Shown here piece after piece: positions 56,740-60,691 of a stretch of 64,000 nt of DNA (the first letter of the stretch is position 1; each line of letters begins with the position of its first letter). The stretch is from Pontiellaceae bacterium B1224 (lineage in GTDB: Bacteria; Verrucomicrobiota; Kiritimatiellia; Kiritimatiellales; Pontiellaceae): positions 62,001 through 126,000 of the forward strand of contig JAROBA010000006.1 in assembly GCA_029432815.1 (NCBI GenBank), given 5' to 3'. Below the pieces are notes generated by a model. That model saw only the letters and a list, made by a program, of their open reading frames with translations. It was not told the origin of the DNA and did no database searches. Made by a program: the position numbers and the translations under genes.

Positions 56740-56777
56740 TTCCGATTAGGGCACCTGTCCGGTGCCCGTAATCGGAA
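56740..56777. repeat. Strong hairpin flanking the inverted-repeat element
   Basis: TTCCGATTA pairs with TAATCGGAA and GGGCACC with GGTGCCC, one G bulged, around a 5-nt loop. The right arm overlaps the first four bases of the left terminal inverted repeat. It may be the target site of the insertion. Confidence 0.6.
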
Positions 56778-56820
56778 ATAAGGGCAGGTGTGCTGCACGG
56801 GGTGGATGTCCTCCCGTTGG
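56774..56820 (+). repeat. Left terminal inverted repeat
   Basis: 47 bp, one mismatch to the reverse complement of 58557-58603. It contains GTGGATGTCCT (56802-56812), which is complementary to the leader just before the first gene. Confidence 0.9.
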
Positions 56821-56856
56821 TCCCGCATAATGCGGGTGCAAAAAACCAACAAAGAA

Positions 56857-56867
56857 AGGACATCCAC
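56857..56867 (+). promoter_or_regulatory. Leader segment sequestering the ribosome site of the first DUF1670 gene
   Basis: AGGACATCCAC (56857-56867) ends directly at the ATG at 56868 and overlaps the AAAGGA ribosome site. It is the perfect complement of 56802-56812 in the left repeat. Pairing would hide the start in transcripts that read through from outside. Confidence 0.6.
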
Positions 56868-57905
56868 ATGATCAAACGTACGGATAAACCGAAGGCGGAG
56901 CAAGCCCGTCGATTAAGATTGAAAACCCAGGAACAGCAGCTGGCCAGGCTGGCAGTCGATGGCGCGGGGCTGAGTCCGTGGGAGGCCATAGAGCTCGTAA
57001 AAATGGTTTCGGAAGTTTATTTCGCGGAGCCGCAGGACAACCCGCTTCGAAGCGGTCAGATGTTTTATGAGTGTGCGGCGGCATCTGAAGGGGCCGGAAA
57101 ACCGTTGCGCGAATGTGCTTTGGCCCGTGTGGTGCTTACGATCCACGATCCCGAAGACATTGAAATCCATAACAAAGACGGGGCCGACGAGCTGCGCCGC
57201 CACTGCATCCTGCGGATGACGGAGGAGGCCCGGGAGCAGGACGGCTTGCTGACGCAGGAGGATCTCGCCCGCCTGCTGCACTGCAATGTGCGCACCATCC
57301 GGCGTGATGTGAGGGTTTTCCGGGAGCAGGGGATCGTGGTGGCCACGCGCGGCACGATGAAAGATATCGGGCCGGGCGTATCGCACCGGGGCGTGGCCAT
57401 CGGCCACTGGATCAACGGCGACGACACGCCGGAGGTCGCGCGCAAAATCAACCATTCGCTGGCAGCGGTCGAACGCTATATCGACACCTTTGCCCGCGTG
57501 GTCTTTCTCGAACAGAAGCAGTTCGACTGTTTTGCAACGGCACTGACGATGCGGATCTCTGTGGCCGGTGCGAAAACCTTCCTGGGTATACTTGAAGAGC
57601 ACCGGCACCGACCGGAGTTTAAGCGGCGGCTACAGGAGCTTGAAATTATCGGCGGGAGGTTCTTCGAAGCGGAGGACTTCGAAAAAGGGGATCTACGCAC
57701 CACGCGAATGCGAAAAACGCATGGAGGCTGCCGTGAAAAAGAAAGAGACCCATCTTCAGGCCACCTACAACCCCATGATGTTCAAAACCTTCGTCGGCGC
57801 GCTCGAGGCGTTCTTTGCCGACGAATGCCCGCAGCTCGGCGGCATGCGTACCCGTCAGGTGCTCGTACAGGCCGTACTCGGCATGGTCAACGAGTTCTTC
57901 CCTGA
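56868..57905 (+). CDS. DUF1670-like HTH protein, first copy
   Basis: A 345-residue protein. Middle blocks are VSEVYFAEPQ..PLRSGQMFYE, a helix-turn-helix LLTQEDLARLLHCNVRTIRRDVRVFREQG, RGTMKDIGPGVSHRG and HSLAAVERYIDTFARVVFLEQK. The order is typical of DUF1670. No catalytic residues are established for that family. It is paralogous to the second gene over nearly the whole length. The C-terminal ~55 residues overlap the start of the second gene and have unusual Arg-rich composition, so they may be noise. The function is unknown; a DNA-binding or recombination role is suggested only by the flanking inverted repeats. Confidence 0.75.
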   Translation: MIKRTDKPKAEQARRLRLKTQEQQLARLAVDGAGLSPWEAIELVKMVSEVYFAEPQDNPLRSGQMFYECAAASEGAGKPLRECALARVVLTIHDPEDIEIHNKDGADELRRHCILRMTEEAREQDGLLTQEDLARLLHCNVRTIRRDVRVFREQGIVVATRGTMKDIGPGVSHRGVAIGHWINGDDTPEVARKINHSLAAVERYIDTFARVVFLEQKQFDCFATALTMRISVAGAKTFLGILEEHRHRPEFKRRLQELEIIGGRFFEAEDFEKGDLRTTRMRKTHGGCREKERDPSSGHLQPHDVQNLRRRARGVLCRRMPAARRHAYPSGARTGRTRHGQRVLP

Positions 57906-58545
57906 AACCAGCCACCTGCGCCAGGGACAGATCCAATGGGTCACGGTGGACAAGGACGAGACCGCCTCCTATGGCAAAAGCATGCGCAACACCCGCCTCA
58001 AGAGCGTCGTGCTCGACCTCGTCCGAACCGAGGACATTGCCGAACGCGCTGAGGGCAAGCGGCTGCGCGAGATTAAAAAAGAAGCCGCCGTACGGTTGTT
58101 CGAACAGGCCGATGACCAGGGCGGCTGCATGACCCATGCCGAGGTCGCCATCCTGCTCAAGATCTCGCCGGCCACCGTCGGACGCTACATCCATGAACAC
58201 GAGTTCGAAACCGACGGGCTGGTTCCCCGGCGCGGCACGATCCACGACATGGGCCCGACACTCACCCATAAAAAGCCCATCATCCGCAAACTGTTCCTCG
58301 ACGGTAAAACCGTCAGCCAGGTCAGCCGCGAAACCCGGCACAGCCCCGAGGCGATCCACCGCTACATCCGCAACTTCCGGCAGGTGCTGCTCTGCCGCCA
58401 GAAAGGACTCGATGTAAAGGAAACCGCATTCGCCGTAAAAATCAGCGAACGCCTCGTGCTCGAATACCACGCGCTCATCGACAAGTTCGCCGAAGAAAAC
58501 GTCGTCCTCGAAAGCATCTTGCAATATGTCGGGAAGGAACTATAA
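57733..58545 (+). CDS. DUF1670-like HTH protein, second copy
   Basis: A 270-residue protein, most likely from the GTG at 57733, since GGAGG stands five bases before it. It parallels the first copy: VNEFFPETSHLRQGQIQWVTV, a HTH CMTHAEVAILLKISPATVGRYIHEHE, RRGTIHDMGPTLTHKK, HSPEAIHRYIRNFRQVLLCRQKGLD and VLEYHALI. It lies in a different frame that overlaps the end of the first gene by 173 bp, suggesting translational coupling. It lacks any DDE, serine or tyrosine recombinase motif. The stop is 11 bp before the right inverted repeat. Confidence 0.8.
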   Translation: MKKKETHLQATYNPMMFKTFVGALEAFFADECPQLGGMRTRQVLVQAVLGMVNEFFPETSHLRQGQIQWVTVDKDETASYGKSMRNTRLKSVVLDLVRTEDIAERAEGKRLREIKKEAAVRLFEQADDQGGCMTHAEVAILLKISPATVGRYIHEHEFETDGLVPRRGTIHDMGPTLTHKKPIIRKLFLDGKTVSQVSRETRHSPEAIHRYIRNFRQVLLCRQKGLDVKETAFAVKISERLVLEYHALIDKFAEENVVLESILQYVGKEL

Positions 58546-58556
58546 CTCATGAACCT

Positions 58557-58603
58557 CCAACGGGAGGACATCCACCCCGTGCAGGACACCTGCCCTTATT
58601 TCC
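58557..58603 (-). repeat. Right terminal inverted repeat
   Basis: Reverse complement matches the left repeat at 46 of 47 positions. It ends 11 bp after the second gene's stop. Confidence 0.9.
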
Positions 58604-58668
58604 TATGTAAATACTGTCTAAATCAGTATTCGAATTGATAAAGGTTTACTTACAATAAACCTGAAAAT

Positions 58669-58786: not shown

Positions 58787-60691
58787 ATGAATAATACATC
58801 GTATAAAGTTATAGTTGTTGGCGGTGGTCATGCCGGCTATGAAGCTGCTTTAGCATCATCACGAATGGGTGTTAAAACATTGTTAATTACTTTAAATAAA
58901 CAACTTATAGGTAGATTGCCTTGTAATCCTGCTGTTGGAGGTATTGCGAAATCCCATCTCGTATCTGAATTGGATGCGCTTGGTGGTGAGTTAGGTCGAA
59001 ACTCCGATTATACGGGAATTCAGTATCGTATGCTAAACACCCGGAAAGGACCGGCAGTTCAGTCAAATCGTATTCAATGTGATAAGGATTTATTTCCTGT
59101 TCGTATTCAGGCGGTATTAGGGATGCAGGAAAATCTGGATATTCATGATGACATTGTGACTGCAATACGAACGAAGGGATCAAAGATTTGTGGAGTAACA
59201 ACGCGCGGTAGTGGTGATATAGATGCAGCTTCTGTTGTTATATGCACCGGTACTTTTCTTAGAGGTCGTGTTTTGATTGGTATGAAAAGTATTAAGGAAG
59301 GACGGATGGGAGAAGAATCTGCTGAGGATTTATCTGCTTCATTTGACCGATTTGGTTTTACTCTTGGGAGATTGAAAACAGGAACGCCGCCTCGTATTCA
59401 TCGTGATTCGGTGGATTATTCAAGGATGGAGATTCAGCCTGGTGAAGATCCCCCACCCTTTTTTTCTCGGATGGCACGAAAGGAATGGAAAATGTTCCAC
59501 GTGGAACATGAGCGGAAAGATCAAACCTTAATGAATCGCATGTTCCATGTGGAACATCAGGGATTGCATCCTTGGACACCGGGAACTGAGCAGATTCCTT
59601 GCTGGTTGACACATACTAATGAGCGAACGCATCAGATTATTGCTGATAATCTGACAAAAAGCGCAATGTATGGCGGGGTGGTTGAAGGAACTGGGGTTCG
59701 CTATTGCCCTTCAATTGAAGATAAAATTATTAAATTTGCTGACAGAACCTCCCATCATGTCTTTGTTGAGCCAGAGGGACGAAATAATATACGACTCTAT
59801 CCTAACGGTACTTCAAATAGTCTTCCAGAGGAGGTTCAGGAAGAAATGATTCATTCTATCCAGGGATTGGAAAAAGCTGAAATTATTCGTCCCGGCTATG
59901 CAATAGAATATGATTATGCGGATCCAACCCAGCTTTTTCATACGCTGGAAACAAAACGCGTGGAGAGTCTATATTTTGCAGGGCAACTGAACGGAACTAC
60001 TGGGTATGAAGAAGCAGCTGGCCAGGGGTTTGTTGCCGGAGCCAATGCTGCACTGAAGTCAATAGGTATAGATCCGCTTGTATTGAGTCGAAATGAGAGT
60101 TATATAGGAGTCCTTATTGATGATTTGGTAACGAAAGGGACAGATGAACCTTATAGAATGTTTACATCCAGATCTGAACATCGTCTAACCTTACGTCAGG
60201 ATAATGCGTATTTCCGCCTGTTGGAAAAAACAAAACAGATCGCGATTGTTGATTCTTCTGAAATTGGTGATATTGAAAAACAACGTATTATAATCGATCG
60301 TGAATCAAATCGTCTAGAAAAAGTATTTCATGAAGGAAAGTCGCTTGCTCAGATTCTCCGGCAACCGGAGATATCCTATAAAGATCTTCCCCAGGATTCA
60401 GGCTCTTTAGATGAAGAGGTGATTAAGCAGGTTGAAATTGAGGTTAAGTACGCTGGATATATTAAGCGGGAGAGAGATCGCATTGAGATTTCAAGAAAAC
60501 AGGAAAAGCAGCATATTCCAATTAATTTTGATTATGATTCAGTACAGAGTCTCCGCTATGAAGCGCGGGAAAAGTTAAAAAATATACGTCCGGAAAATCT
60601 GGGGCAGGCTGGTAGGATATCCGGCGTAAACCCATCTGATATATCCATTCTGGCAATGTGGTTTAAAAAAGGAACGGTCTCCTCAAAATAG
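58787..60691 (+). CDS. mnmG: tRNA uridine-5-carboxymethylaminomethyl modification enzyme MnmG, with parS-bearing insertion
   Basis: A 634-residue FAD protein that, with MnmE, modifies the wobble uridine of several tRNAs. The FAD motif is [19 protein letters not shown] at residues ~11-29; then [47 protein letters not shown] and [16 protein letters not shown]. Around residues 232-262 an insertion carries FHVEH twice ([18 protein letters not shown]), encoded by two parS-like palindromes. The codon use of this gene is more AT-rich than the element before it. It is immediately downstream of the inverted-repeat element. Confidence 0.96.
59493..59508. promoter_or_regulatory. parS-like centromere site 1 inside mnmG
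   Basis: TGTTCCACGTGGAACA, a perfect 16-bp palindrome that differs from the canonical parS by one symmetrical base pair (TTTCACGTGAAA to TTCCACGTGGAA) and matches Pseudomonas-type parS. Its position beside an origin region fits chromosome segregation by ParB. Confidence 0.85.
59541..59556. promoter_or_regulatory. parS-like centromere site 2 inside mnmG
   Basis: TGTTCCATGTGGAACA, one base off palindrome symmetry in the centre, 48 bp after site 1. Together they form a tandem ParB-binding cluster. Confidence 0.75.

Follow-up and report, generated by a model that had tools for sequence, protein, structure and literature searches.

To our knowledge, the small transposons of prokaryotes that have been studied well all rely on one of five types of enzyme. 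In IS607, Tn4451 (TnpX) and other serine-recombinase elements two bases are identical between the element ends and the target, and the empty site and the joint each hold a single copy of them. IS110/IS1111 family members encode a DEDD transposase that works with a bridge RNA or seekRNA (PMC11208160, PMC11187229), IS3, IS1 and IS911 are among the frameshifting insertion sequences (for frameshifting in general, PMC5009743), and control of the transposase at the level of translation has been described for IS200, IS10 and ISPpu9 (PMC8450116). DUF1670 (PF07900), on the other hand, is a domain family to which Pfam assigns no function. Here we analysed a stretch of 64,000 nucleotides from Pontiellaceae bacterium B1224 (contig JAROBA010000006.1; hereafter the window), part of a genome assembled into 204 contigs totalling 5.4 Mb. 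At positions 56740-58601 the window contains an insertion-sequence-like element of 1862 bp. It belongs to a demonstrably mobile family for which ends, target and empty sites are defined and which encodes no proteins other than those of this domain family lacking an assigned function. As the element carries two DUF1670 proteins only and no recognisable DNA-moving enzyme, these proteins may be a new kind of transposase.

Mobility of the element family

The DUF1670 element family is mobile. One genome (G318) contains at least 13 copies whose surroundings are all different; one relative is present there in 4 copies at 99.5-99.7% identity, and a second in 9, of which eight are full-length (97-100%) and one is rearranged. 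When the flanks of one copy (L041) are joined via a single TT, they give a sequence that is found uninterrupted in the same genome, 18 kb away, in a second copy of the target gene (L060; 100% identity over 322 nt), and that also matches a congener (L061) at 92%. The site in the window is empty in at least nine congeners, in which a TIGR01777-like epimerase gene (named from its sequence) and mnmG are 150-230 bp apart; in the window the same two neighbours are separated by 2056 bp, that is 194 bp plus the 1862-bp element. DUF1670 was present in 20 of the 388 genomes of the phylum, in a patchy distribution; the DUF1670 genes of Methanosarcina acetivorans served as a control for this search. The window genome itself carries one full copy and a 68-bp relic of a right end (G000:C160:52001-52068). 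A Pontiella sulfatireligans F21 contig (L006) contains an element that is 81% identical along its entire length, ends included, and the same element is found in a genome of the same genus (G405; L102) with a left flank identical to that of L006. In several other assemblies copies are located at contig ends, as is expected of repeats.

Being short, with fixed termini, and occurring at multiple sites by precise insertion, the element in these respects behaves as an insertion sequence in the general sense. In every completely assembled element with both ends the interior consisted of the DUF1670 pair, and no larger transposon with these ends was seen. An earlier interpretation made from the letters of the window alone (hereafter the sequence-only reading) had proposed a mobile unit; many copies with differing flanks, exact empty sites, a sporadic distribution and conserved termini bear this out, and the contrary outcome it had named, a single occurrence at the same place in all relatives, is not what we found.

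Ends, target and joint

The copies set the boundaries of the element at TT[CA]CGAT... and ...CCTTATTT. Family-wide, the termini read 5'-TT[CA]CGATTAGGGCAnnTGTCC on the left and GGACAnnTGCCCTTATTT-3' on the right, and they are retained in elements that share 34-85% identity at the protein level. The element in the window runs on the plus strand from the left tip TTCCGATT to the right tip TTATTT, in agreement with the 13 copies in G318 and with relatives. Its left end (56740-56762, plus strand) consists of the tip followed by AGGGCACCTGTCC, the left-end motif common to the family, and its right end (58584-58601, plus strand) is GGACACCTGCCCTTATTT, comprising the family motif and the tip. The inverted repeat shared by the elements is AGGGCAnnTGTCC, and the tips before this repeat are unequal, TTCCGATT on the left and AAATA at the inverted right end; a divergent clade (family A of G318, and L051) has a GGGCGTATACCC-type repeat instead. 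A chance occurrence of AGGGCAATTGTCC at 537-549 of the window (minus strand) lacks the tips.

Insertion adds the element beside a single TT: the empty sites L060 and L061 fit one shared TT, and a reading with one TT is possible for the empty site, for each junction and for the joint. The sequence-only reading had suggested target duplications as a mark of transposition; these were looked for, and none longer than TT was found, so that the duplication of at least 3 bp that goes with DDE-type enzymes is missing at these junctions. The targets follow the pattern T-N-W-W-TT-N-N-N-A-W (TnATTTnnnAT), with W at -2 in 27 of 27 and T or A at +5 in 44 of 45; matches to TTAT amounted to 60 of 108, against 32 expected by chance and a maximum of 51 in 20,000 draws. 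They resemble the element's own right-left joint TTAT-TT-CCG-AT, and the predicted circle joint reads ...CCTTATTTMCGAT... Joints of the predicted form occur naturally in compound ends, on the right side of L008 and L053 and in G130 and G294, and in inverted orientation in the window (56761-56791), where the minus strand reads ACACCTGCCCTTATTTCCGATTACGGGCACC, the form of the predicted circle joint. The sequence of the ends co-varies with that of the DUF1670 proteins (Mantel r 0.86; 0.83, p 0.0008, without a near-duplicate), which would fit recognition of the ends by these proteins.

Two described arrangements were considered for the joint and rejected. Coupling sequences of the Tn916 type were dismissed, since within a family the left tip does not vary in the three bases that follow TT (8 and 4 copies in two families, all those that have a left end). 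In dif, the arms are oriented opposite to TTAT-core-ATTA; an Xer/dif element was therefore rejected as well, the joint arms of the DUF1670 element running TTAT-core-ATTA and its targets being scattered.

The sequence-only reading had placed the borders at a 47-bp inverted repeat (left arm 56774-56820, plus strand; right arm 58557-58603, minus strand). The repeat itself was recovered by genome BLAST at 98% over 47 bp, far above chance, and by a repeat search as arms of 50 nt (56771-56820 and 58557-58606) that are 96% complementary, and the contrast it had noted between a GC-rich interior and AT-rich flanks is also real (GC 0.56-0.63 inside, 0.36-0.46 outside). The limits of the element, however, are different: the left terminus is at 56740, 34 bp outside the start that had been assumed, and the right terminus at 58601. 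In the window, L006 and L008 there is an extra right-end-like copy on the left, and a 38-bp palindrome of two left tips is joined to one side; these compounds still have one left tip and one right tip overall. The 47-bp repeat thus combines right-end sequence with a hairpin arm in a lineage-specific compound and is not the family terminus. In the window the palindrome (56740-56777) is near-perfect, is formed by the left tip and an inverted left tip, and has a folding energy of -25.9 kcal/mol (z -7.0). It is present in the Pontiella element L006 too, and in L008 it is located at the opposite side of the genes, which indicates that the gene block has been flipped relative to the tips.

Several end sequences were found outside complete elements. 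A 27-bp relic, TTCCGATTAGGACACCTGCCCTTATTT (L158; G130:C23, about 2325-2351), consists of left and right ends fused, apparently via an internal deletion. Units of 47 bp composed of two inverted right ends (AAATAAGGGCAtnTG...CAnATGCCCTTATTT), with no DUF1670 gene nearby, are located at G079:C49:132268-132314 and 228302-228348 and at G180:C11:32006-32052 (L151, L152, L154), and are possible miniature derivatives or terminators. Four contigs of G294 (C36, C130, C259 and C267; L206-L209) have at least 10 right-end copies at contig borders, four of them with a right-left joint; a DUF1670 gene was not found in this assembly, and the interior of the element is probably unassembled there.

The DUF1670 proteins, their expression and their proposed role in transposition

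The two open reading frames (ORFs) of the element, ORF1 (56868-57905, plus strand; 345 amino acids) and ORF2 (57721-58545, plus strand; 274 amino acids), match PF07900 with E-values of 1e-48 and 2e-56 (166 and 192 bits). Both are above the curated cut-off of 25 bits and are thus members of the family. They are 32% identical to each other (3e-23), so the description of two homologous, DUF1670-like helix-turn-helix (HTH) proteins given by the sequence-only reading was accurate. Only about 130 bp at the left and 56 bp at the right are noncoding. A bridge or seek RNA was not recognised, as the ORFs fill the element and an Rfam scan of it gave no RNA family match; the left hairpin overlies the start of ORF1 and is not a demonstrated guide RNA.

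A -1 frameshift fusion of the two DUF1670 proteins is likely, because ORF2 lies in the -1 frame of ORF1 in ten of ten intact relatives with ends, overlapping it at a run of A7-A9 (eight) or at A5G5 (two); the start of ORF2 usually shows ATGA coupling. Between the slip site and the ATG of ORF2, L050 and L052 differ by 3, 0 and 7 changes at codon positions 1, 2 and 3 of the ORF2 frame, and this segment has 5 synonymous and 3 non-synonymous codons in the ORF2 frame as against 2 and 6 in that of ORF1. Such conservation of the ORF2 frame upstream of its ATG points to translation via a frameshift. The window copy deviates from this pattern, as its slip-site position (57682-57690, plus strand) reads A5G4, with one G fewer than the A5G5 of L006 and L007 (eight other elements have A7-A9). 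ORF2 is therefore in the +1 frame and ORF1 extends to 57905: residues 1-274 are conserved, the conserved region stops near 57689, and the final 70 or so residues are a frameshifted tail. The window copy may thus be impaired.

In nearly all elements a hairpin lies with its 3' arm flush with the ATG of ORF1, although the sequences differ. In the window, the 5' arm (56802-56812, plus strand) pairs with the ribosome-binding site of ORF1, and the 3' arm (56857-56867, plus strand) holds the Shine-Dalgarno sequence AGGA and abuts the ATG (z -4.0). Shuffle tests of single elements were weak for several of them; the cross-pairing test is decisive, with 82 of 88 pairs forming compared with 46 on average and at most 72 for shuffled partners. 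This covarying hairpin hides the start of ORF1. Overall, mobility, borders, target and expression control of the element are well supported.

Four features are common to both paralogues: an N-terminal domain containing a GQ motif, an HTH, the loop RGxxxDxGPxxxH[RK] and another HTH that includes HS...Y. Residues invariant in both, and hence candidates for catalysis, are R116, D166, H173, H196 and Y204 in ORF1 and R125, D176, H183, H207 and Y215 in ORF2. Of known catalytic domains none was recognised. A DDE domain was not found: the window proteins match only the HTH segments of IS21, IS630 and IS3 models, at 13-17 bits compared with cut-offs of 100-160, which agrees with the statement of the sequence-only reading that no known transposase is encoded. 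Among the matches listed at E 0.1 for 24 proteins there was none to the DEDD RuvC-like domain or Tnp_20 of IS110/IS1111; likewise, among those listed, neither Phage_integrase nor the Y1_Tnp or Rep families of HUH enzymes (IS200/IS605, IS91) appeared, and the alignments contain no HxxR and no invariant HUH. The resolvase catalytic domain of IS607 and TnpX was not detected, an HTH_7 match (E about 1e-3) being all that was seen. PADLOC and PHROGs returned nothing but weak HTH matches, and the PDB, searched by sequence and by profile, gave no significant match.

We nevertheless regard it as probable that the element represents an autonomous, insertion-sequence-like family of 1.8-1.9 kb that is moved by its own two paralogous DUF1670 proteins. 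That DUF1670 is the transposase is the most economical assumption, since the element holds nothing else; we infer this role, whereas mobility itself is demonstrated. More tentatively, DUF1670 might be a transposase or recombinase with a catalytic centre unlike those of DDE, DEDD, HUH, tyrosine and serine enzymes, in which the paralogous multi-HTH pair and its frameshift fusion would perform a conservative exchange at the TT common to joint and target. The two proteins would be made separately, by ATGA coupling, and as the -1 frameshift fusion, and their several HTHs would bind two arms of 13-16 bp. Left and right ends would then be brought together in a joint TGCCCTTAT-TTCCG-ATTAGGGCA, probably on a circle, and strands would be exchanged at the TT shared by this joint and a joint-like target. 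Transposition would be conservative, similar to site-specific recombination and without a longer target duplication, and the hairpin over the start of ORF1 would damp synthesis. We infer both the order of these steps and the circle.

Several observations speak against DUF1670 as the moving enzyme and against the mechanism outlined. Searches of Pfam, NCBIfam, PHROGs and the PDB revealed no catalytic domain of any known recombinase, nuclease or transposase, and every meaningful library match was an HTH. AlphaFold2 models, limited by shallow alignments of five sequences, reached a mean pLDDT (per-residue model confidence) of 66 for ORF2 and 47 for ORF1, the latter model being unusable; a Foldseek search with the ORF2 model had as its best hit a TFIIB/MntR-like HTH at E 0.067, with nothing below E 0.06. 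In addition, the frame-conservation test depends largely on a single pair of elements, the window copy with one G fewer could not make the -1 fusion, the circle was not directly observed, and the co-variation of ends and proteins could be explained by common descent alone. Of the sequence-only proposal of a new transposon class or recombinase fold, mobility stands, and a new class or fold is possible; where it had suggested looking for a nuclease core, the predicted structures show HTH folds of low to medium confidence.

The strongest competing explanation, although an unlikely one, is that the DUF1670 proteins play an accessory part, binding DNA and assembling the ends for a host recombinase (Xer-type, another tyrosine or serine enzyme, or a replication or repair nuclease), as with elements that exploit host Xer. 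This would account for the recognised domains all being HTHs and for a joint of two inverted arms around a short core, similar to the sites of tyrosine and serine recombinases. However, the targets are scattered and weakly specified, unlike dif, the ends vary with the DUF1670 clade inside one phylum to an extent beyond expectation for a common host enzyme, and control by frameshifting and a start hairpin is typical of transposase genes. Less plausible still is a non-autonomous unit that shares its ends with an unrelated element and is mobilised in trans by that element's transposase, with the DUF1670 genes as passengers or regulators. End motifs without DUF1670 do exist, for example the two-right-end units of G079 and G180, but these look derivative, no second gene set with the same ends was seen, every complete two-ended element contained the DUF1670 pair, and the ends co-vary with the proteins.

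There is little reason to place DUF1670 among the tyrosine-recombinase-like enzymes as a highly diverged member. The catalytic C-terminus of XerD has the spacing H-26-H-9-Y, which the invariant H-(23/24)-H-(8)-Y of both paralogues nearly reproduces, and the arm-core-arm joint resembles tyrosine-recombinase sites. Against this, phage-integrase models gave no match at E 0.1 among the families listed, the segment scores and is modelled as an HTH, the second catalytic Arg (of HxxR) is absent, and the left tip always retains its own three bases beside TT, unlike with integrases that form heteroduplexes. Finally, a regulatory or phage-derived cassette that is fixed in place and unable to move by itself, as HTH proteins, an inverted repeat and a single full copy in the window genome might suggest, is scarcely credible here and is refuted for the family by copies at differing sites and exact empty sites; the phage-like alternative of the sequence-only reading likewise found little support, with no DUF1670 match in plasmid and phage records and one partial relative in IMG/VR (L100), where the ORF1 profile found none.

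L100 (IMG/VR 3300009502_000203, positions 1-620) is a distant DUF1670 gene located at one end of a contig labelled as viral; a right-end-like GGTCATTTGCCACTATTT comes after it. L055 (G295) and L057 (G151) hold divergent DUF1670 genes that lack the usual ends; the L055 pair has ORF2 in the +1 frame, and these genes possibly belong to a different type of element. Outside the element, mnmG in the window contains two palindromes, TGTTCCACGTGGAACA (59493-59508) and TGTTCCATGTGGAACA (59541-59556), which encode MFHVEH repeats and look like ParB-binding parS sites (0.01 expected by chance).

Among the papers searched, none named DUF1670 or PF07900, and the link between DUF1670 and a mobile element appears new as far as can be checked without ISfinder. 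DUF1670 thereby gains a testable role and may prove to be a new class of enzyme that inserts DNA precisely and leaves no target duplication. The element occurs in many Verrucomicrobiota-type bacteria, and DUF1670 genes of bacterial and archaeal genomes can now be annotated as likely mobile elements.

Comparison with known systems

The DUF1670 element combines features of several described systems. Like IS1111/IS110 elements it is small and has a short shared core in place of a longer target duplication, a predicted circular joint and inverted repeats in subterminal position, whose outer tips are unequal, which is also the case in IS1111; in contrast to them it has no DEDD/RuvC-like match, its noncoding regions are short and without an RNA family match, and its copies share the weak target TnATTTnnnAT, not one long guided target. 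With IS3, IS1 and IS911 it shares overlapping ORFs with ORF2 in the -1 frame at an A-rich run, an HTH in the first protein and a probable fusion product, but compared with IS3 it lacks a DDE domain and a target duplication of 3-4 bp, and its ORF2 is a paralogue of ORF1, not a nuclease. The control of expression, a hairpin covering the ribosome-binding site of the first gene, follows the same principle as in IS200, IS10 and ISPpu9, whose proteins and ends are unrelated. As regards insertion, the identity of two bases between ends and target, of which the empty site and the joint have one copy each, is shared with IS607 and TnpX elements, although the DUF1670 proteins have no resolvase catalytic domain, match HTH_7 only weakly, and use a TT that is located off-centre between the inverted arms.
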